From positions 1-24,487 of the IMG/VR virus record IMGVR_UViG_3300018080_000575: a stretch of DNA of 24,487 nt; one strand, 5' to 3'. Position 1 is the stretch's first letter. The number at the start of each line of letters is the position of its first letter. A model generated the notes under the pieces. The model saw only the letters and a program-made list of their open reading frames with translations. It was not told the origin of the DNA and did not search any database. This document shows positions 496-15,052 of the stretch, one piece after another. The translations under genes were made by a program, and so were the position numbers. The stretch is from a virus.

Positions 496-3294
496 ATGTC
501 AAATGAAAGTATTAAAATTCCCTTTAAAATAAAGGGTGAATTTAAGATACCAGATAATATTAAAACTAAAAGCTCAAAGCGTATCATTGCTGGATATGCT
601 TCCATAGTAGAGCTAGATGTTTACGATGAAATAATTCCACATGAAGCATTAAAAGAAGGATTAAAAACATTAATAAGTGATGAGCACTATGCTAATCTTA
701 TGTTATCACACTCTGATATACAAGTTGGTAAAATATTGAAGAGTTGGGGTAAATTAAAAACCCATGTTGATAAGAAAGGATTATTCATAGTTGCAGAATT
801 AAGAGATGATATTAATGCTGCTAACGATGCTTGGGAGATGATACTCTCTGGTGAGATGAGGGGTTTTTCCATAGGTGGCGAAGTCATAAAAGAACATGGT
901 GAAGCAACCAAGGGTGGAAGAGAATGGACTGTTTTAGATAAGATAAATTTATTTGAAGTGAGTATTTGTTCATTTCCTGCGAATGAAAAGTCAGGATTTA
1001 TTGTCATTTCAAAAAGTATTAAATCATATGAATGTGAATGTTTAGATTGTGGAGACACGGTAGAATCTAATGAACACTGTAAGGATATTGAATGCCCTAG
1101 TTGTGGTGGAGAGATGAGAAGAGTTGATAGACAAGGGGATGGAGATAAAAAATCCAAATCTAAACTTGTCACTAAATCACCTGCATGTAGACAAGAAGAC
1201 GAAACTAAAGATGAATGTGTATCTCGTAAGATTCCTGAAATAATGGATGAGGGATATGACCAAGACCAAGCAATTGCTATGGCAAATAGTATGTGTAGCA
1301 CAGCATGTAGTGATAAATCAAAATCATGTGAGATTGATAGTGGTGACTATTCTAAATATGAAAATCATTATATAAAAATAAATAAAGATTTGCCAGATGA
1401 TTTTTATAAACTTGCTAATCAACGGAGAAAATCAGTATACAGTCCAGAAATGATTCTATATAAGAAATTCTTAGGTGCACAACCAAAAGATATGTATATA
1501 AATAGACTTAGTATCCCTATGGCTCTCATGGGAAGTTATTTATATGCTCATAAAAGCATTTTAGGTGATGACCCACTAGAAGTCCGTAGATTTGATTATG
1601 AGGGCGAATGTCCACCTGTATATTTTGATATAAAGTTAAATTCTAAAAAAAGTGATAGTTTATTATTAGATGGAATTGCATTTTATAAAAATAAAACTAT
1701 TTATAAAGTTTATCCTACATTGGGTGGCATACAAATAGAAATAATTACTAACCGTAAAGATAAGAGTAGAAATAATAAAATAATGTCTGATATTCATAAA
1801 TGGGTAAAAGAAAATAATTTCTTGAGAGGAGAAAAATTTACAATATACGGTGAATTTATTACTGTTAGTAAAAAAAGTTGGGATGATATTTTCATTAATA
1901 AAAATATTAGGAAGTCTGTTGAGAGAGCAGTAAAGATAGCCAACAAAGAAGATTTTGTTAGTAGAGGAATGTTATTTTGCGGTCCTCCAGGAAATGGTAA
2001 AACATTAACTGGTAAAATAATGTTTAATAATCTTAAATGTAGTTGTATATGGATTACTGCTAAAGATTTTTCTGATGGAATATATGATGCAAGTAAAATT
2101 ATTGGAGAAGCATATCGTCTTGCAAAGTTACTTGGACCAACAGTAATTTTTATGGAAGATATTGATAATTGGTTATCACCAAAAACTATTGATGCATTAA
2201 AAACAGAAATGGATGGATTAAGTGAAAACCGAGGAGTTTTGACAATACTCACATCAAACAATCCAGATAGTTTACCTGATGCGTTGTTAGATAGACCAGG
2301 AAGATTTCATGATATATTAATGTATGAAGCTCCCAACAGTGATGCCAGAAAGAATATGATTAAGGGAATGGTAGAAGTCTCAGATAAAGTTCTTGAAGAT
2401 ATAGTGAAACAAACAAATGGATATAGTGGTGCGTACATAAAAGAGTTAATTGATTTAGCAAATCTTATTTCTGACGAAGATGAAATAAAGATTGAAGAAG
2501 CATTACACAAATCACTTACTAAGATAGAACATCATAAGAATTTAGTTGCCAATATTAGGCAAAATAAAAATGTTAAAGAAGAATTGTCAAATGACGATGA
2601 AGAAAAAAGCGAAGAAGTTAAAATAGATATGAAAACAAAAGAGGGATGTACTATGTCTAAAGACAAGAAAGAAGATGTTAAAGACAACATCAAGAAAGAT
2701 GAATCTGTGGAAGATGATGTGAAAGACACTAAATCTGAAGAAACAGAGGAATCAGAGGAAACCTCTACTAAAGAAGAAGAGGAAGATAGCGAACCAGCGT
2801 TTAATTTAAATGATGTTATGCAACGTTTGGAAGCTGTCGAAGGAACTGTCCGTCAAATATTAGAGGGTAGTGAAGAAGAGGCTGAAGATGAAGACGAAGA
2901 AGATGAAGAAGACTATGAAGAGGAGGAGAAATCTGACTCTGATAAAGAAGATAAACCAGATAATGACGTTGAGAAAGAAAATGAAGAATCTGATAAACCT
3001 GAAAAAGATGAGGAAGAATCAGGTGAAAAAGAGAAATCTGTAGAAAAATCTAAAGATAAAGATGATGAGGAAATTAAAGTTCTTCAGAAATCAATATCTG
3101 ATAAAGATGAACATATTAAAGAACTGGAAAAAACTGTTAATAAACTCAATGCTAAAATTAAAGAGCTTGAAGAAACAGAAGAACCAGCTAAAACTGTTAT
3201 TAAGAAAGAAGATGACTTCGATGATGATGTTGAAGATGATAAAGTCATAGTGAAACGTCAAGGCAAAGAAATCTTCTTAGATGATTGGGAATAA
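496..3294 (+). CDS. Fused head-maturation protein: XkdF/HK97-like prohead protease + zinc ribbon + BCS1-like AAA+ ATPase + acidic scaffold
   Basis: The product is 932 residues from ATG 496, which AAGGTG (484-489) precedes; an in-frame GTG at 487 overlaps that site. Residues about 15-170 match an XkdF/HK97-type prohead serine protease, with His72 in LMLSHSD, Ser125 in GFSIGG and a C-terminal SICSFPAN strand. C182/C185 and C200/C203 form a zinc ribbon. Residues about 232-268 carry a Cys-rich CVSRKIPEIMDEG...DQDQAIAMA segment. An AAA+ domain follows: Walker A GPPGNGKT 496-503, Walker B VIFMEDID 550-557 (ED order as in BCS1), sensor TSNN 586-589, and DRPGRF 599-604 with likely arginine fingers. 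The region from about 690 to the end is Glu/Lys/Asp-rich coiled coil, as expected of a scaffold. The usual family protease is roughly 200-400 residues, so the ATPase is extra. The gene lies directly before the decoration and capsid genes. Protease and ATPase calls are strong; their joint role is inferred. Confidence 0.88.
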   Translation: MSNESIKIPFKIKGEFKIPDNIKTKSSKRIIAGYASIVELDVYDEIIPHEALKEGLKTLISDEHYANLMLSHSDIQVGKILKSWGKLKTHVDKKGLFIVAELRDDINAANDAWEMILSGEMRGFSIGGEVIKEHGEATKGGREWTVLDKINLFEVSICSFPANEKSGFIVISKSIKSYECECLDCGDTVESNEHCKDIECPSCGGEMRRVDRQGDGDKKSKSKLVTKSPACRQEDETKDECVSRKIPEIMDEGYDQDQAIAMANSMCSTACSDKSKSCEIDSGDYSKYENHYIKINKDLPDDFYKLANQRRKSVYSPEMILYKKFLGAQPKDMYINRLSIPMALMGSYLYAHKSILGDDPLEVRRFDYEGECPPVYFDIKLNSKKSDSLLLDGIAFYKNKTIYKVYPTLGGIQIEIITNRKDKSRNNKIMSDIHKWVKENNFLRGEKFTIYGEFITVSKKSWDDIFINKNIRKSVERAVKIANKEDFVSRGMLFCGPPGNGKTLTGKIMFNNLKCSCIWITAKDFSDGIYDASKIIGEAYRLAKLLGPTVIFMEDIDNWLSPKTIDALKTEMDGLSENRGVLTILTSNNPDSLPDALLDRPGRFHDILMYEAPNSDARKNMIKGMVEVSDKVLEDIVKQTNGYSGAYIKELIDLANLISDEDEIKIEEALHKSLTKIEHHKNLVANIRQNKNVKEELSNDDEEKSEEVKIDMKTKEGCTMSKDKKEDVKDNIKKDESVEDDVKDTKSEETEESEETSTKEEEEDSEPAFNLNDVMQRLEAVEGTVRQILEGSEEEAEDEDEEDEEDYEEEEKSDSDKEDKPDNDVEKENEESDKPEKDEEESGEKEKSVEKSKDKDDEEIKVLQKSISDKDEHIKELEKTVNKLNAKIKELEETEEPAKTVIKKEDDFDDDVEDDKVIVKRQGKEIFLDDWE
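2653..3294 (+). CDS. Probable nested scaffolding protein from an internal in-frame start
   Basis: ATG 2653 is in frame with the 496-3294 gene. GAGGG at 2641-2645 precedes it with seven bases of spacing, like other starts in this window. It would yield a free 213-residue protein beginning MSKDKKEDVKD. The product is almost entirely charged and acidic, with long Glu/Asp runs at about 70-100 and a heptad-rich coiled coil at about 150-185, ending in GKEIFLDDWE. Phage lambda makes its scaffold Nu3 the same way, from an internal start inside the C protease gene. The product would form the internal core on which the capsid assembles and then be degraded by the protease domain. That it is made separately is inferred from the start site. 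Confidence 0.5.
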   Translation: MSKDKKEDVKDNIKKDESVEDDVKDTKSEETEESEETSTKEEEEDSEPAFNLNDVMQRLEAVEGTVRQILEGSEEEAEDEDEEDEEDYEEEEKSDSDKEDKPDNDVEKENEESDKPEKDEEESGEKEKSVEKSKDKDDEEIKVLQKSISDKDEHIKELEKTVNKLNAKIKELEETEEPAKTVIKKEDDFDDDVEDDKVIVKRQGKEIFLDDWE

Positions 3295-3309: not shown

Positions 3310-3326
3310 AAGGTGAAAAAGATATG
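3310..3326 (+). promoter_or_regulatory. Translation start site identical to that of the capsid gene
   Basis: The 17 bases AAGGTGAAAAAGATATG, comprising ribosome-binding site, spacer and start codon, recur exactly at 3757-3773 before the capsid gene. The match to the 16S rRNA 3' end (AAGGTGA) is strong and the spacing is the same in both. Confidence 0.7.
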
Positions 3327-3746
3327 GCATTTACTTCATTGGAAGGAACTAAAATAATTGTGAAAGAGGAAGGCACTAATTACATGAACTTCATTGCATC
3401 TGGTACTATTGTTGCAGGTCAAGCTGTGAAAATTGCTGGTGCAGCAAGTGGTTCAGACCAAGCGAAAGTTCAAGAAGCAGGGTCTACTCCAGAATCTAGT
3501 TTTATTGGTGTTGCAGGATTTGATGTGACATCTGGTAATCGTGTAATTGTAGTTGTTAAAGGAAATAAAGTTTGGTCAAGGGCAAGTGGAAGTGTTTCTG
3601 CTGGAGATATTGTGACTGCATGTGATGGTGGTTACTTTAAGACATCTACATTCGGTGGAGGTTCTGGTAGTGGTAACATTCTTAGTCACGGAATTGCACT
3701 TTCAGATGCATCAGATGATGGTGTCCTTAAAATATTGTTACAATAA
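3324..3746 (+). CDS. Capsid decoration/cement protein (DUF2190-like)
   Basis: The product is 140 residues, small and rich in Gly, Ser, Val and Ala, and predicted to be all beta. The pattern GTIVAGQAVKIAG (about 28-40), then FIGVAGFDVTSG (about 62-73), then a SVSAGDIVTACDGGYFKT segment (about 92-110) is typical of DUF2190-type capsid cement proteins, which bind the outside of HK97-fold shells. Position supports this: it directly follows the protease/scaffold gene and directly precedes the major capsid gene, and it has the same translation start site as that gene, as expected if the two are needed in similar amounts. No signal peptide or membrane segment is visible. A head-fibre protein is the alternative. 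Confidence 0.75.
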   Translation: MAFTSLEGTKIIVKEEGTNYMNFIASGTIVAGQAVKIAGAASGSDQAKVQEAGSTPESSFIGVAGFDVTSGNRVIVVVKGNKVWSRASGSVSAGDIVTACDGGYFKTSTFGGGSGSGNILSHGIALSDASDDGVLKILLQ

Positions 3747-3756
3747 TTGTATTAAG

Positions 3757-3773
3757 AAGGTGAAAAAGATATG
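3757..3773 (+). promoter_or_regulatory. Strong translation start site of the capsid gene
   Basis: AAGGTGAAAAAGATATG ends in the capsid start codon at 3771-3773. It is an exact copy of the sequence at 3310-3326, implying matched translation of the decoration and capsid proteins. Confidence 0.7.
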
Positions 3774-4736
3774 ACTAAAAAATTGCCAAAAATGCTTGAA
3801 TATTATAACGCAACTCCCTCAGAGAGAAAAGCTATCCGAAATACTGAATCATTTAAGAAAACCGTTCTTGCTGGTATGCCAAAATCCAAGAAAGAACTGT
3901 TACTTACTGAAGCAGCAGAAGAAGATACTTTACTCCAAGAGGAAGTTCTAAAAACTATTGTTGAAGGTGCTCGAAGATGGAGATGTATGCGAGACTTACT
4001 TCCTATCGAAAAAACTAACACTAACTCAGTTCGTGTAGTTTATCAAGATAGTGCATCAGGTTTTGCTGCTGAAATTCCAGAAGGGGGTAAAATACCTGTT
4101 AACCATGATTCGTTCAGTTATACTACAATCAACATTAAGAAATATGGTGATAGACCAACCATCACTGAAGACCTTATTGAAGATTGTCTCTGGGACAGGG
4201 TAGCTCTTGAATTAGACCGTCTTGGAGAACGAATGGAGAATACTTTTAATCGAGAATGTATGGATGCGATGCTTAGCAGCTCTCCAAATACATCAAATGC
4301 TACTGCTGGTGGACTTACTCCTAAGAACATTGCAACTGCAATTAAAAATGTTAAAGTGAACGGTTATATGCCAACACATCTTGTACTTCATCCAACTGCT
4401 GATGGCGAGTTAATGCAAAGTGATTATTTACTTAAAGCTAACGAGTCTGGCTCTGATAGGCTGTTACGAAATGGAGATGTTGGTGAACTATTCGGTCTCA
4501 GAAAATTCATTTATTCAATTGAAAATGGTAACTGGAATGATACTGATGGTTCTGGCTATTATGCATGGGTAGGAGACCCAAGTAGATATGCTAAAGTTAT
4601 GATGCGAAGAGAAATTTCATTTAAGAAATACGAAGACCCAATCTATGATTTAATTGGTATTTCAGCAACTATGAGATTTGGTGTTGGAAAATTACAAAAC
4701 GATGCAGGAGAATTCATAGTTAACGCATCATCTTAA
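3771..4736 (+). CDS. Major capsid protein, HK97 fold
   Basis: The product is 321 residues. An N-terminal arm (1-60) is charged and helical and may be trimmed by the upstream protease. The segment from about 85 to 140 (FAAEIPEGGKIPVNHDSF, then TINIKKYGDRPTITEDLIED) matches the extended loop and start of the spine helix of HK97-fold capsid proteins. It is followed by a long helix (RVALELDRLGERMENTFN) and an Ala/Asn-rich A-domain region, with THLVLHPTADGELMQSD (about 200-217) a common A-domain strand. The length is normal for the family. It directly follows the decoration gene, has a strong AAGGTGA site and is followed by a T-rich terminator, all fitting a very highly expressed structural gene. 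Archaeal tailed viruses use the same fold. Confidence 0.9.
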   Translation: MTKKLPKMLEYYNATPSERKAIRNTESFKKTVLAGMPKSKKELLLTEAAEEDTLLQEEVLKTIVEGARRWRCMRDLLPIEKTNTNSVRVVYQDSASGFAAEIPEGGKIPVNHDSFSYTTINIKKYGDRPTITEDLIEDCLWDRVALELDRLGERMENTFNRECMDAMLSSSPNTSNATAGGLTPKNIATAIKNVKVNGYMPTHLVLHPTADGELMQSDYLLKANESGSDRLLRNGDVGELFGLRKFIYSIENGNWNDTDGSGYYAWVGDPSRYAKVMMRREISFKKYEDPIYDLIGISATMRFGVGKLQNDAGEFIVNASS

Positions 4737-5493: not shown

Positions 5494-5748
5494 ATGTGTG
5501 GAATTATAATGGTTTATAGAAGACCAAATGAAAAGTATCCGAGAAATTGGAACAGACTTAGATTTGTTATCTTTAAAAGAGACCATTATATGTGTCAAAT
5601 ATGTGGAATCAAATGTGATTCCGAAACATTATCAAGAAGACCTAATTGCCACCACATAATACCTATTAGTAAAGGTGGAAGTCATAGTTGGGATAATTTA
5701 ACTACATTGTGTGATAGATGTCATAGAATAATGCATGGGATAATATGA
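5494..5748 (+). CDS. HNH endonuclease
   Basis: The product is 84 residues from ATG 5494, which AGGTCA (5482-5487) precedes at the usual spacing; ATG 5488 and 5509 are alternatives. The HNH fold is complete: C34 and C37 (CQIC), catalytic-site pair H53-H54 in CHHIIPISKGG, Asn in SWDNLTTLC, C73 and C76, and H77 in CDRCHRIMH. The paired CxxC motifs bind structural zinc, and the His/Asn/His set binds the metal that cuts DNA. It overlaps the next gene by ATGA (5745-5748), so it is embedded in the connector operon. It could be a homing-type selfish gene or a packaging-associated HNH nuclease such as those found near terminases. Which of the two cannot be decided here. Confidence 0.9.
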   Translation: MCGIIMVYRRPNEKYPRNWNRLRFVIFKRDHYMCQICGIKCDSETLSRRPNCHHIIPISKGGSHSWDNLTTLCDRCHRIMHGII

Positions 5749-6065
5749 GTGCTTATAAATCTTGGTTAACTGATTCGGCTGATATATATACTAGAACTCC
5801 ATCAACTAATGCATTAAATGAAGATATTATGTCATGGAGTAAAACATATTCTGATGTACAGTGTAGATTTTTTCATGTTACTTATGAAGAAGTAAAGGAA
5901 AGGATAGGTGAATGGGACAATATTGAATACCGAGTTTATTTTCTTTCAGGTCAGACTATCACTACAGAAGATAGAGTTAACTATGAAGGAAATGACTATG
6001 AGGTAATCAAAGTATTCACTGACACAGAAGATTATTATAAACACGCATTTATTCGAAGGCTGTAA
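5745..6065 (+). CDS. Head-tail stopper/joining protein
   Basis: The product is 106 residues. It opens with a short N-terminal segment (DSADIYTRTP) and continues as a small beta-barrel-like protein: DVQCRFFHVTYEE, then YRVYFLSGQTITTEDRVNYEGNDYEVIKVF. The element 'DRV.Y.G..YEV..V' is characteristic of SPP1 gp16-like stoppers (phage head-tail joining family), which plug the connector after DNA packaging. The start codon overlaps the HNH stop codon (ATGA), implying translational coupling, and the next gene begins four bases after its stop. Length and position both fit. Confidence 0.75.
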   Translation: MSAYKSWLTDSADIYTRTPSTNALNEDIMSWSKTYSDVQCRFFHVTYEEVKERIGEWDNIEYRVYFLSGQTITTEDRVNYEGNDYEVIKVFTDTEDYYKHAFIRRL

Positions 6066-6069
6066 TAAT

Positions 6070-6543
6070 ATGGGTATGTTCATAATAGATATAGATGTTA
6101 AAGGAGTTAATCAAGTAAGAACTGCATTTAAATTAAAGAATGCACAAATGGTTAACACAACAATAAATGCAACTCATAGAGTTATGGATGAAATAGAAAA
6201 AAATGCAAATGAGATTGTTTATAGAGATTATAAAACATATTCTCATGGACACTCCACTCCACCCATAGAAAAATCATGGGTACATGAAAAGGGTAAATAT
6301 TATAGTAACTATGGTTACGTAACAAGGCTCAGAAATGATTCTGAACACGCTGCTGCTGTAGAATTTGGAGTTCCACATATAATATATCCAAAGAATGCAA
6401 TGAAGCTACATTTGGGTAATGGAGTCTTTAAAGAATCAGTTCGTGGACAGGATGGTAAGTTTTATCTTACAAATGCAATAAATATGACTGACCAATACTT
6501 AGATATATTTGCTAGAGAACTAAGAGGAATAATAGGTGTATAG
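6070..6543 (+). CDS. HK97 gp10-like tail-completion protein
   Basis: The product is 157 residues. The core AAAVEFG at 94-100 followed by VPHIIYPKNAMKLHL is the hallmark of the HK97-gp10-like family (YVEFG..PH.I.PK.AK.L). A helix from about 25 to 55 begins the fold, and a helical C-terminus (ITMT-like DQYLDIFARELRGI) ends it. Members act at the head-tail joint during tail completion. It sits between the stopper and the tail-terminator gene, the standard order. The start at 6070 has only weak complementarity upstream (AGGCTGT), so translation is probably coupled to the preceding gene. A second in-frame Met at codon 3 is possible. Confidence 0.8.
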   Translation: MGMFIIDIDVKGVNQVRTAFKLKNAQMVNTTINATHRVMDEIEKNANEIVYRDYKTYSHGHSTPPIEKSWVHEKGKYYSNYGYVTRLRNDSEHAAAVEFGVPHIIYPKNAMKLHLGNGVFKESVRGQDGKFYLTNAINMTDQYLDIFARELRGIIGV

Positions 6544-9637: not shown

Positions 9638-12600
9638 GTGACGAATGTCGGCACAATTAGTGTTTTGATTACTGCGAGAACAGGTCAATTCACAAAAGGA
9701 ATTACTCAGGCAACTGCTGTCTTAAATACGTTTGCAAGAAATGCAGGTAGGATTGCAGGAGCTATTACTGCACCAACTAAGAATGTAGAAGGACTTGGCT
9801 CTGCATTAAGTAAGAATCAATCTAAACTCACTGACTTTGGTATGACAGGTGTACAAGCTGGAAAACAAATGGGTCAGATGGGTAAAGGTATGGGTCAAGC
9901 TGCAAATGCTATTGGTAATAATGTAGGTAAGGCACAAAATAGTTTATTAAGTTTACAATCATTTGTTGGTAAGATTTCTCACTATATTACATTTAGTATA
10001 GGTGTTCAGATGGTTATGGGAATCAAACGTGGTTTCCAATCATTGATAGATACAACGATAGAATTTGAGAAACAGGCTGTGAGAACAGCAGGTGTGGCTG
10101 GTAGATTAGGTGGTGCATTTGATAAAACAGTTGAAAATCTACAACAGGTATCTAGGACTCTAGGTGCAACTACAATTTTCTTCGCAACAGATGCAGTTAA
10201 TTCTATGTATGATTTAGCTAGTGCAGGATTTGATATAGCAGATGCTATGGAAGACGTTACAAATGGAGTTAATGTTATGACTCCTATCCTTGAATACGCT
10301 GCTGCACAACAAATAGAGTTAGCAGATGCTACGGAAAGTGTAGCAAAGGCATTAAAGATGTTTGATGAAGATTTAAGTGCAACAAAATCCACAGTGGATA
10401 CATTTACTGCTGCGATTGCTAATTCTTTCTTGACTGCTGACAAACTATCTGATGCTCTTAGATATTCTGGAGCTATGGCTCATACATTAGGTCTTAATTT
10501 GCAAGAGACTGTAGCTGGTGCAATGGCATTGGCTGATGCTGGTTTAACTGGTTGTTATGATAATGAAACTAAAGTATTAACCAATGAAGGTTTTAAATAT
10601 TTTAAAGATTTAAATAAGAGTGAGAAATTCTTAACATTAAATCTTAAAACTGGAAAAATGGAATGGCAAGAAGCATATGATTATATAGAGTATGAGGTTG
10701 ATAGACCAATTTATAGATTAAAAAATAGACATTTAGATTTATTTGTTACACCTAACCATAATATGGTTGTAAGACCTAGAGGAAAAAATGATTTCCAAAT
10801 TATGAGAGCAGACGAAGTATATGGAAAGGATGTAGAATATAAATTAGCAGGGAGTTGGCATAATAGAAAAAAGAATTTTAAATTACCTAGTATAAAATCT
10901 AAGTTTAGTACATACACTAAGAAATCCAAAGCATTAGAAATAAATGGGTTATTGTGGGTTAGATTCATGGCATTTTATCTTGCAGAAGGGCACTACACTG
11001 GTAATGTACATAATAGCAACTACGGAGTGTTTGTATCACAGAAGAAGAATGGAAAAGCATATAAAATCATAAAAGAAACATTAGATAAATTACCATTTGA
11101 TTATAAATATCAAAAAAATGGTCAGTTTAGGATTAATAATAAGCAATTGCATTCATATGTTAAACAGTTTGGTAGGTCTTATGATAAATATATTCCAGAA
11201 TGGGTAAAAGAAAATAGTAAAGAATATTTAGAAGAGTTTTATAGAATATATAATCTATGTGATGGAGATAACCAAGGTAATATTTATACATGCTCACCTA
11301 CAATCATTAATGACTTAATTGAGATATTAATTAAGATTGGTTATGGAGCTAAGATTTATAAACATAGGGAAAAAGGAGAAAAACATTGGATTAAAGACCA
11401 TTATGGTACATGTAAATATGACCAATATATTATATATGTAAATAAGAATCATACAACTCCACGCTTTGCAAGAAAGGAATATACTAATTGGCATAAAGGT
11501 AGATATGGGGATAGTTGGGGTAAATCAATAAAAGAAGAATGGAAACATTATAAAGGTAAGGTGTATTGTGTTACAGTTCCAAATCATACATTAGTAGTAG
11601 AAAGAAATGGTAAAGTACAAATATCTGGTAATTCCCAAGCAGGTCAGCGTTTAAATATGATTTTGACTAAATTAATTGACCCAACAGAAGAAGCAAGGAG
11701 AACGTTAACAAGATTAGGTATAACTATTGAGGATATCAATCCTGAACTTCACTCATTTACAGAAATATTATATACATTAGAAGCTGCTGGATTTAAAGCT
11801 GCTGATGCTGCAACTATGTTTCGTGCTAGAACTGCTGGTGCTGCTGCTATGTTAGTTAATAGTGCAGATGCAGTAGGACAATATATTAGAGTTCTTAACG
11901 GTGCAAGTAATATCACATCAGAATTAGCAGAGAAACAGAGAGATACTCTTTGGGGTACTCTTAAATTAGTAGCTGCTGCTTTTCAAGATGTAGGAATAGG
12001 ACTAGGACAATTATTAATTCCAATATTTAAAACATTTGCTAGTTTTTTAAAAGGAGTAGTTGTACCTGTACTTAAAGGTACTGTAGAAAGCATCAAAGTA
12101 TTATATGAAATTTTAAAACCAATAGCTCCAGCATTAAAAGGAGTTGCAGTTGGTTTAGCTATTGCTACTGCTGCATTTGTAGCATATAAGTTATCAACGA
12201 TATCTGCCACAAAATCAACATTACATTTTTTTGCTGTATTAGCTGCTAATCCTCTTACATGGATTATTAGTGCAATAGGTGCTGTAATAGCATTATTTAT
12301 CCACTTTGCAAAAAAAACAGGGGGACTATCTAATATAATGGATGGGTTATCAGATGTAATATCTGGTGTTTCAAGTGCAGTTATGGCATTCATAGATGCA
12401 CTTAAACCCGTTGCAGATGTCATTGGTAAAGTATTGCTATATACAACTCCGTTAGGTTTATCTTTAGTCCTCCTATCAAAATTATTTAAAGATAATAATA
12501 CAGAATTAGCCCGTGCAAGGAAATTCTATGACCAAATTTCAGATGAAGTTAAGGAATACGAAACATCATTAGGTGCATTAGAAGATAAGCTAGAAGAACA

Positions 12601-15052
12601 AAAAAGATTAGAAGAAGAAATAATTGAACTTCAAAAAGATGAGACAGCAAGTATCGATGAGTTATCAGAGAAAAAAGGTGAATTAAAAGAAGTAACTGAG
12701 GAAGTAGAAGCAGCAGAGAAAGATTTCTTAGCAACAACTACTGAGCTAGTAAGAGAAATACAAAAATTATCAGAAGATTTGGATATTTATGCTAATAAAT
12801 TTGCAGACATTATTGAAATCAGTAACAAAATAACAAATGCTGAAGCGGATAGAGCAGATGTAGAAGAAGAAATTCTTGATTTGCAGGAAGAATATAATAA
12901 AGCAGTTGCAGATTATGGACTCACATCATTAGAAGCAACAGAAATTTTATCTAAATTAGCAGATAAAGAACAAGAAATTATAAAGATTGATAAACAAATT
13001 GCAGAATTATCAGACGATAAAACAGAAGCAATGAAAGAAGAAGAGAAACAACTTAATAAACTTAATAGTACAGAAAGAACTTATGCTGATATAATACAAA
13101 CAGTTCTTGATGGAGAAGATAAATTATCTGATTTACGAGTCAAGAAAGCTAAATTAGCAGCTAAACAAAACGTTTTAATATCAACTAGAAATAAATTTGA
13201 AGGTTATTTTGAAGAGCAAGTTAACGCACTAAGAGATGCAGAAACAAAATTATATGAAATAGAAGCTAAGTTATATCAACTTAGATACGGTCAAATAGAT
13301 TCATATAGAGATTTATTTGATGCTATAGCTTCACAAGGAGTTGCATCTAAAGAAGTTATTGAAGCATATAGAAATATGGAAATATCGCAAGGTAAAGCTA
13401 AGAAAGAACAAATCGACTATTCTAAAGTATTGGAAAGGTTATCAGATGCTAATAGAGAAAAGGCAATGGAATGGACACAGGCATATGTTGAAGCTGTTAG
13501 TGATGGAGCTACACATTCAGAAGCTATGATAAAAGCAAATTCAGAATTAGGATACACATTAAGTAACGTAAGTGGAGTAACTAATTCAGTAAGAAAAGAG
13601 ATTATGGAGTATGCAGAAGCACAAGGATTGGCTAATAAACTAGCCAGTGAATTTAGAGGGACATCACTTAATCTTGCAGAAGATTTAGTTAATTCAGGTC
13701 AAGCATCTACAGAGGTTGCTAAGGCATATTATACATTACTTAAAAATTCAAATGATTTAGAAAAAAGTGAGAATGAATTAATTAAGGTAGAAGATGATGC
13801 AGTAGATGCATCTAAGGACTTAATTAAAACTACTGGTAGGCTATATAATTATTATGAAAATATAGAAGGATTAGAAGATGATAGAACTGGCATCGTTATG
13901 AATATGGTTGATGCTATGAACTTATCAAACAGAGCAGGAGAAACCCAAGCAGATGTATTAGATAGTCTTAATTATTTCTACGGTACAAATAAAGAATCAT
14001 TAGAAGAATTTGATGAAGCAGAAGTTGTAGCAGCATTATCAGCGATGCGATTAGCTGACTCATTAGATTACTTAAAAGGAAAGAAATTAGCAAAGGATGA
14101 TATTCTTCCAGAACTTCCATTGGATGATTGGGATACATTCATATCACTTGCATATGAAACAGCGCAAGAACAAAATGTATTTGATGACCTTACATCATCA
14201 CTCACTGGATTAGATGAGGATATTGCAGCTTTAGTTAAATCGTTATCTGGATTTGATGATATCATAATAGGATTAACAATAGATAACCCTGCTGATGAAC
14301 CTACATGGTGGGAAGAAGTTAAATCTACATTTCAAGCAGGATGGAAAAGTATACTTGAAGGTACTGACCCGTTAGGCATAGGGGATTGGTGGAGTCATGT
14401 AACTGAAACACTAAGTAAAGGATGGGAAAATATTACAAAGGGCTTAGACCCATTAAATATTAAAGATTTATTTGTTGGTGGATTCAAATGGTTTTCTGAA
14501 CAATTAATAAATTCTGCTAATGGAATTATAACAGTTGCAGATATAATTGCTGGTGGATTTGGATGGCTTAAGGATAGATTAGTAGATACATTAACAGGAA
14601 TTATTGACATAGGTAGCATGATAACTGGTGGAGTTTCTGGTGCTGTAGATACAGTGTCAGGATGGTTTGGTGGACTATTTGGTGAGAAAGGCATTGTTGC
14701 TGCTGCAAGAGGTATCACTGAGACTAGAGGACCGACACCTGCAATTATTGGTGAGAATGGTGCTGAAGCAGTTGTTCCACTACAAGGAATTAATAGAAGA
14801 AACGGTTTAGAAATTCTAAAACGCATTATACCAGAACACTTTCCAGAATTGACACCAATGGAATCAGGAAGCATAGTTTCATCATCATACGGTGGTGTTA
14901 AGACTAACCCAAGTGGACCTGCAACAGTAGTACAAGGAAATAAGGAATATCATATACATGGTGATATAAATGTGTATGGTGTACAGGATGTAGATGAGTT
15001 CATGGATGAGCTTATGAGAGAACTAGAAGAAAGAAAGCGTATGGTGGAATAA
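9638..15052 (+). CDS. Tail tape-measure protein (TP901-type) interrupted by an intein
   Basis: The product is 1804 residues before splicing and 1444 after. The start is GTG 9638 with AAAGTGAT upstream; no nearby in-frame ATG exists. The TP901-type core lies at about 130-305 and 666-790, with the conserved ALADAGLTG / SQAGQRLNM block split by the intein. Hydrophobic segments at about 788-891 match the membrane-active region of tape measures. A long Glu/Lys coiled coil runs from about 971 to 1218. Helical stretches follow, then the classic PAIIGENGAEAVVPL motif at about 1701-1715. The protein sets tail length and is threaded through the tube; mature length predicts a long tail of the order of 200 nm by the usual 1.5 angstrom per residue rule. 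Its stop overlaps the next start (TAATG). Confidence 0.92.
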   Translation: MTNVGTISVLITARTGQFTKGITQATAVLNTFARNAGRIAGAITAPTKNVEGLGSALSKNQSKLTDFGMTGVQAGKQMGQMGKGMGQAANAIGNNVGKAQNSLLSLQSFVGKISHYITFSIGVQMVMGIKRGFQSLIDTTIEFEKQAVRTAGVAGRLGGAFDKTVENLQQVSRTLGATTIFFATDAVNSMYDLASAGFDIADAMEDVTNGVNVMTPILEYAAAQQIELADATESVAKALKMFDEDLSATKSTVDTFTAAIANSFLTADKLSDALRYSGAMAHTLGLNLQETVAGAMALADAGLTGCYDNETKVLTNEGFKYFKDLNKSEKFLTLNLKTGKMEWQEAYDYIEYEVDRPIYRLKNRHLDLFVTPNHNMVVRPRGKNDFQIMRADEVYGKDVEYKLAGSWHNRKKNFKLPSIKSKFSTYTKKSKALEINGLLWVRFMAFYLAEGHYTGNVHNSNYGVFVSQKKNGKAYKIIKETLDKLPFDYKYQKNGQFRINNKQLHSYVKQFGRSYDKYIPEWVKENSKEYLEEFYRIYNLCDGDNQGNIYTCSPTIINDLIEILIKIGYGAKIYKHREKGEKHWIKDHYGTCKYDQYIIYVNKNHTTPRFARKEYTNWHKGRYGDSWGKSIKEEWKHYKGKVYCVTVPNHTLVVERNGKVQISGNSQAGQRLNMILTKLIDPTEEARRTLTRLGITIEDINPELHSFTEILYTLEAAGFKAADAATMFRARTAGAAAMLVNSADAVGQYIRVLNGASNITSELAEKQRDTLWGTLKLVAAAFQDVGIGLGQLLIPIFKTFASFLKGVVVPVLKGTVESIKVLYEILKPIAPALKGVAVGLAIATAAFVAYKLSTISATKSTLHFFAVLAANPLTWIISAIGAVIALFIHFAKKTGGLSNIMDGLSDVISGVSSAVMAFIDALKPVADVIGKVLLYTTPLGLSLVLLSKLFKDNNTELARARKFYDQISDEVKEYETSLGALEDKLEEQKRLEEEIIELQKDETASIDELSEKKGELKEVTEEVEAAEKDFLATTTELVREIQKLSEDLDIYANKFADIIEISNKITNAEADRADVEEEILDLQEEYNKAVADYGLTSLEATEILSKLADKEQEIIKIDKQIAELSDDKTEAMKEEEKQLNKLNSTERTYADIIQTVLDGEDKLSDLRVKKAKLAAKQNVLISTRNKFEGYFEEQVNALRDAETKLYEIEAKLYQLRYGQIDSYRDLFDAIASQGVASKEVIEAYRNMEISQGKAKKEQIDYSKVLERLSDANREKAMEWTQAYVEAVSDGATHSEAMIKANSELGYTLSNVSGVTNSVRKEIMEYAEAQGLANKLASEFRGTSLNLAEDLVNSGQASTEVAKAYYTLLKNSNDLEKSENELIKVEDDAVDASKDLIKTTGRLYNYYENIEGLEDDRTGIVMNMVDAMNLSNRAGETQADVLDSLNYFYGTNKESLEEFDEAEVVAALSAMRLADSLDYLKGKKLAKDDILPELPLDDWDTFISLAYETAQEQNVFDDLTSSLTGLDEDIAALVKSLSGFDDIIIGLTIDNPADEPTWWEEVKSTFQAGWKSILEGTDPLGIGDWWSHVTETLSKGWENITKGLDPLNIKDLFVGGFKWFSEQLINSANGIITVADIIAGGFGWLKDRLVDTLTGIIDIGSMITGGVSGAVDTVSGWFGGLFGEKGIVAAARGITETRGPTPAIIGENGAEAVVPLQGINRRNGLEILKRIIPEHFPELTPMESGSIVSSSYGGVKTNPSGPATVVQGNKEYHIHGDINVYGVQDVDEFMDELMRELEERKRMVE
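10553..11632 (+). mobile_element. Intein with LAGLIDADG homing endonuclease in the tape-measure gene
   Basis: This is 360 residues, in frame, occupying precursor residues 306-665. Splicing block A starts at Cys306 (CYDNETKVLTNEGF). Block B is TPNH at 371-374. The endonuclease has two LAGLIDADG-type motifs: FMAFYLAEGH (443-452) and FYRIYNLCDGDN (534-545), each with its acidic residue. Block F contains VTVPNHTLVVERNGK with His650. The C-terminus is ISGN665 followed by Ser666 as the first extein residue. The penultimate residue is Gly rather than the usual His, which other inteins tolerate. Removing it rejoins LADAGLTG to SQAGQRLN, the conserved tape-measure motif. The element is richer in Lys, Tyr and Asn than its host gene, a sign of separate origin. 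Confidence 0.95.

Follow-up and report, generated by a model that had tools for sequence, protein, structure and literature searches.

A 24,487-base IMG/VR virus record, analysed over its full length and referred to here as the window, includes a gene in which an S78-type prohead protease and a Bcs1/YjoB-like AAA ATPase module are encoded as one protein. The fusion is carried by a large uncultured tailed-virus group, which suggests that an energy-driven helper is built directly into head assembly. The single parts of this protein are already known, as is the idea that phage BCS1 ATPases have a part in head assembly (PMC7824862). New with respect to the literature and the isolated phages searched are the fusion itself, the near-universal link of the ATPase to the protease, and the location of the module, probably by insertion, between the protease core and a C-terminal motif; the literature search found no paper on this fusion.

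The fusion gene and its neighborhood

The gene (nucleotides 496 to 3294, plus strand) reads as one frame through 932 codons, from the ATG at 496 to the stop at 3294, with no internal stops and with the ribosome-binding-like sequence AGAAGGTG immediately 5′ of the start codon. The encoded 932-amino acid protein (106 kDa) consists of the S78 prohead protease, a zinc-ribbon-like segment, the Bcs1/YjoB-like N-domain of about 165 residues, the AAA ATPase domain and an acidic tail. The proposal that protease and ATPase are joined in one frame, made before from the letters alone (the sequence-only reading), proved to be real, as the frame is unbroken and the same architecture recurs in relatives.

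The protease core (residues 26–178, nucleotides 571 to 1029, plus strand) matched Pfam Peptidase_S78, PF04586, with an E value of 2.9e-16 and 60.5 bits against a curated cut-off of 21, and PHROG 80 with an E value of 8e-19; it was modeled with a pLDDT of about 90. The profile search therefore confirmed the HK97-like half of an assignment previously worded as XkdF/HK97-like, while the XkdF half was rejected, since PF14550 was absent from the Pfam scan of the window protein at E values up to 0.1. The protein also missed the cut-off of the NCBI equivalog TIGR01543 (55.3 bits vs 59); because the latter is a stricter subfamily model, we claim membership in S78 and do not claim the equivalog. His72 and Ser125, the two residues singled out earlier, were kept in 44 of 44 and 45 of 45 relatives carrying the protease, and Glu154 in 45 of 45.

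Residues 180–210 (nucleotides 1033 to 1125, plus strand) resemble a zinc ribbon. Profile matches to DUF7129 and rubre_like_arch agree with the ribbon named in the sequence-only reading, but they are weak, with E values of 0.0076 in Pfam and 5e-5 in NCBIfam, neither of which reaches the cut-off. A ribbon resembling that of the window is also present in the relatives L072 and L034. The short helical segment that follows (residues 237–275, nucleotides 1204 to 1320, plus strand) matched PHROG 2423 (E 0.0014) and the ordinary protease L005. At the other end of the protein, the tail (residues 693–932, nucleotides 2572 to 3291, plus strand) is partly helical and as acidic as had been described, with 100 acidic and 42 basic residues and a pI of 4.2; the full-length structure model has predicted helices at residues 666–703 and 853–893. 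This tail may act as a scaffold.

The fusion gene is located just 5′ of the major capsid gene (nucleotides 3771 to 4736, plus strand; Pfam Phage_capsid_4, E 3.9e-12; PHROG 10, E 8.9e-16), with one small gene intervening (nucleotides 3324 to 3746, plus strand) that codes for a probable cement or decoration protein (Pfam Phage_cement_2, E 4e-4, short of the cut-off). Head-tail adaptor and neck genes are found at nucleotides 5745 to 6543 of the plus strand (PHROG 763, E 0.0012, and PHROG 5, E 3.1e-9), and a tape-measure gene at 9638 to 15052. As a consequence of this downstream set of cement, capsid, adaptor, neck and tape-measure genes, the fusion gene occupies the place expected of an HK97-type protease. 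The tape-measure gene includes an apparent intein at about residues 305–660 (Pfam Intein_splicing, E 0.0025). Neither a tRNA nor an Rfam match was found within the window.

The Bcs1/YjoB-like ATPase module

The module consists of an N-domain (residues 301–455, nucleotides 1396 to 1860, plus strand) and the AAA ATPase domain with its small domain (residues 456–690, nucleotides 1861 to 2565, plus strand), the latter matching Pfam PF00004 at residues 492–607 with an E value of 3.5e-19. Walker A Lys502 and Thr503, Walker B Glu554 and Asp555, the sensor Asn588, and Arg600 and Arg603, which are the two arginines of the DRPGRF motif, were conserved in 55 of 55 aligned relatives. Judged by these residues and those of the protease, both enzymes of the fusion look active. 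In the relatives no hydrophobic 19-residue stretch scored above 1.9 (55 members), and the module is soluble and has no membrane segment.

The region of residues 290–475, which spans 185 to 201 residues in all 55 relatives, had been described as resembling no domain that could be named. With respect to sequence this description stands: the N-domain had no convincing Pfam match, no BCS1 N-domain family was matched across the 55 members, and a search by sequence against the PDB returned no chain up to an E value of 5. Its predicted fold, on the other hand, resembles the N-domains of Bcs1 and YjoB. An AlphaFold2 model of the domain alone, built on a 55-row alignment (pLDDT 91.5, pTM 0.80), aligned to Bcs1 in nine PDB entries with VIA-align Z values of 4.9 to 6.0 over 88 to 121 residues, and the matched part was always the Bcs1-specific domain that precedes the AAA domain, but common arrangements can also give Z values of 5–6. 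A Foldseek search of the PDB with just this domain found nothing below 1e-3.

The comparison of the full-length model was more telling. In Foldseek YjoB occupied ranks 1 to 3 and Bcs1 ranks 4 to 10, followed by Rix7, p97, proteasome Rpt and FtsH. VIA-align gave a Z value of 21.6 over 355 residues (model 279–679) and 17% identity for YjoB, and 19.4 over 342 residues (model 285–682) and 15% identity for Bcs1; the ATPases of the proteasome, p97 and FtsH aligned over about 215–260 residues, which correspond to the ATPase part only. Since a difference in Z of 1 or less is treated as a tie, the argument for Bcs1 and YjoB rests on the joint coverage of N-domain and AAA domain. The root-mean-square deviations of these alignments are large (7.6 to 9.8 angstrom), which a rotation of one domain against the other would account for. 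From these models we concluded that N-domain and AAA domain together are a Bcs1/YjoB-type module at the level of the predicted fold, the level at which the earlier label "BCS1-type" is right.

The module is not, however, mitochondrial Bcs1. By sequence profile alone the AAA domain is nearest to Cdc48/p97, the small domain matched AAA_lid_3 (AAA_lid_3-like in 27 of 55 relatives) and not a BCS1 lid, and there is no membrane segment. Mitochondrial Bcs1, a heptameric translocase of the folded Rieske protein, shares with the window protein a beta-rich N-domain directly before the AAA domain, but it has a transmembrane helix, found in none of the 55 members, and no protease. Because the N-domain has no sequence match to a BCS1 profile or PDB chain, the module may be said to work like Bcs1 rather than to be Bcs1. 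The Bacillus subtilis protein YjoB is reportedly a soluble hexameric AAA+ chaperone that has an internal chamber and prevents the aggregation of certain proteins. Like the window module, YjoB (PDB 7w42, 7w46) aligns through both N-domain and AAA domain and has no membrane segment; unlike the window protein, it is cellular and has neither a protease nor a head-gene context.

Distribution in relatives and origin of the fusion

Viral contigs were scanned with the window protein, with alignments of the ATPase module, and then with a wider profile, which found relatives on at least 204 IMG/VR contigs, the best 80 of which were kept. In 76 of the 89 non-redundant relatives having both N-domain and AAA domain, the protease is in the same frame, so that the search of viral metagenomes for this domain order found it repeatedly. 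A frameshift or an assembly error joining two genes was one possible explanation of the window protein. No such defect was found in the window, overlapping broken frames exist in a few relatives (L036, L063 and L157), and the recurrence of the fusion in dozens of divergent, independent contigs from many metagenomes leads us to reject chance or assembly error as extremely improbable.

The 13 unfused relatives keep the two genes close. In L063 and L157 the protease is in an overlapping upstream frame; in L014, L054, L060, L062 and L068 its gene is immediately downstream; and in L072 it is downstream after one intein-bearing gene. L029, L025 and L150 are closely related, and the next gene, identified in L029, codes for an S78 protease (Pfam E 3e-9; PHROGs). 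The N-terminus of L048 lies outside the available sequence, and L184 is a standalone relative on a bacterial-MAG contig that has no head genes. Thus, in all unfused viral relatives with flanking sequence the protease either overlaps upstream or is the next or second gene downstream. On the tree, four changes between the fused and unfused states are needed, one of which is forced by well supported branches. The capsid profile located a major capsid gene downstream in 52 of the 63 loci with at least 1.5 kb available, at a median distance of 126 bases; it failed in L014, L029 and L054, yet PHROGs gives a major head protein a few genes on in these three.

The location of the ATPase gene between portal and protease in L014 and L029, and the standalone relative L184, could be taken to mean that the module serves some other task, such as portal or terminase remodeling or an anti-host function, and that its fusion to the protease merely allows it to be released by cleavage. 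We consider this quite improbable, since the association with protease and capsid genes has persisted despite great divergence and the tree shows few rearrangements.

In the genome collection the sole close relative is located on a 3.4-kb scaffold of a Cloacimonadota MAG, and a scan of 125 Cloacimonadota genomes added one further relative, which is distant and standalone. On a Cloacimonadota MAG contig, L185 (5455-6927) codes for a standalone protein with N-domain and AAA domain near primase-like and recombination-like genes, a neighborhood that is possibly a phage early region. Among the matches listed for isolated phages and plasmids, records had the AAA part or the protease part and never both, and no record covered 80% of the query. 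A CobS/CobT-like AAA protein with a vWA partner in haloviruses was considered as a counterpart and rejected, as it involves different genes in an accessory region.

The protease of the fusion seems to be split by the module. Behind the AAA domain, at the start of the acidic tail, 34 of 55 relatives have a sequence that matches the motif KEGRVLSxKN in its loose form, the window protein itself having a degenerate version. When the consensus of the stretch containing this motif was compared with 50,697 phage records, 11 matched, and in nine of these the hit fell within a gene for a head or capsid maturation protease; the match to Geobacillus phage GBK2 had an E value of 9e-5 and the others were weak (E 0.07–1). 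In three of the matched records, where the gene order is portal-protease-capsid, the protein has about 230–310 residues and its protease core is immediately followed by the motif. The GBK2 protease, an HK97-type prohead protease, shares with the window family the S78-type core, the C-terminal GRVLS..N motif and this gene order, but it has no ATPase module and its motif directly follows the core. Because the motif is located after the AAA domain in the fusions and directly after the core in ordinary phages, the module was probably inserted between the core and the C-terminal motif, and the fusion may be an example of an enzyme inserted within a prohead protease.

Insertion into an ancestral protease gene had been proposed before on the basis of base composition; the main support for the insertion now comes from the split motif. 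The earlier remark that the ATPase stretch is more AT-rich than its flanks is partly right (G+C content of the N-domain, 0.265; AAA domain, 0.308; protease, 0.318; tail, 0.329), and the module is lower in G+C in 41 of 45 fused relatives. At third codon positions, however, this is the case in only 27 of 45, which indicates that the low G+C content is mostly due to amino acid composition. It was consequently rejected as a sign of recent insertion and lends the insertion little support.

Proposed role in head assembly

The head proteases of tailed phages are generally regarded as ATP-independent, the S78 proteases of ordinary phages work without an ATPase, and ATPase-free S78-type proteases were present in the ordinary phage records examined. 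One explanation for the ATPase of the fusion, along the lines of the parallel drawn in the sequence-only reading, is a machine comparable to FtsH or Lon, in which the AAA ring would unfold scaffold or capsid tail segments and, inside the prohead, hand these over to the attached protease. As in FtsH, Lon and other AAA proteases, ATPase and protease are on one chain in most members, and by sequence the AAA domain is closest to p97, the proteasome and FtsH. Pore loop 1 is mixed: the strict aromatic-hydrophobic-Gly motif is present in six of 55 relatives and a looser resemblance in many, Y, H or W occupies the usual aromatic position in about half, and glycine is found in 29 of 55; the loop of the window protein differs. 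An argument against threading based on the lack of a pore loop was dropped, as the looser K/H/Y-x-G forms are common. Nevertheless, the window protein has no HExxH, the M41 zinc protease signature, and belongs to a different protease class; the order from protease to ATPase is opposite to that of FtsH; the N-domain is of another type, with a Bcs1/YjoB-like predicted fold; the two enzymes are encoded by separate genes in L014, L029, L054, L060, L062, L068 and L072; ordinary S78 proteases do without an ATPase; and Bcs1 moves folded cargo (PMC12219900). This mechanism is hence not our leading model and seems unlikely. The removal of scaffold suggested in the sequence-only reading may nonetheless be among the tasks of the module.

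We favor a tethered Bcs1/YjoB-type AAA ring chaperone that is carried on the prohead protease chain and acts on capsid or scaffold proteins, a reading to which we give not quite even chances. Since the module is tied to the protease between the core and the C-terminal motif, it would be expected to accompany the protease into the procapsid, which is why we favor a tethered chaperone. The fusion chain would enter the assembling procapsid together with the scaffold, and the module would thereby be held where capsid and scaffold proteins crowd. The AAA domains would form chambered rings, which would spend ATP on holding, folding, moving or releasing folded head proteins; cutting of the scaffold and the tether by the protease would follow, as in other phages. 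Ring formation, ATPase activity, the location inside the prohead and the nature of the clients are all inferred here. Bcs1 forms a ring, and a concerted change driven by ATP carries a folded protein through its two vestibules (PMC12219900; PMC11143374). More tentatively, this widespread uncultured tailed-virus lineage could possess a built-in, ATP-driven chamber of the Bcs1 type that remodels or loads folded head proteins, making capsid maturation energy-driven from within.

Standalone BCS1 ATPases of jumbo phages have been proposed to aid head or virion assembly (PMC7824862). They are, like the window module, phage-encoded AAA proteins of the BCS1 type, but they are not described as fused to a head protease, and it is by this description that they are set apart. 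The finding that the AAA chaperone nearly always shares a chain with the protease is strong genetic support for this published proposal, for which a single purified protein and a single procapsid preparation now offer a test. A viral AAA family for which PHROGs has only matches of unknown function or generic AAA is also connected with head assembly by this finding.

A related explanation, which we regard as rather improbable, is that a Bcs1-like ring loads the procapsid with folded proteins, either internal or ejected ones, in line with the proposal for the standalone phage proteins. The folded cargo of Bcs1 and the jumbo-phage proposal speak for such a loader, as does L072 (2674-7161), where a 1495-residue protein combines a metallo-beta-lactamase fold, an ATP-dependent DNA ligase (Pfam E 1.9e-27, with the KIDG motif present), a zinc ribbon closely resembling that of the window, and the same ATPase module. 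Its linker LKADDLGQITSPHGDPLPWPV (KADDLGQ..SP.GD.LP) resembles the start of the capsid protein of that virus, IKADDLGQLDSPSGDDLPRPI, and the likeness is possibly a shared protease-cleavage or targeting tag. Against a loader, neither a cargo gene nor a common signal was found in the window, the membrane segment is absent, and most relatives have no extra enzyme.

Other variants were observed among the relatives. In L054 (4552-7140) and L060 (5311-7146) the fusion partner of the ATPase is a domain with a weak match to ligases (Pfam E about 2e-5), in which the catalytic lysine motif is seemingly missing. The capsid profile identified two capsid-like genes, usually in tandem, 3′ of the fusion in L028, L080, L026, L087, L089, L034, L053 and L106. 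In L018, L015, L013, L046 and L030 the capsid matches fall into separate segments spaced by roughly 1.3 kb or more, which suggests that the capsid gene carries inteins or introns. The version of the fusion in L100 (4765-10770) has 2002 residues and ends in a long repetitive C-terminal extension.
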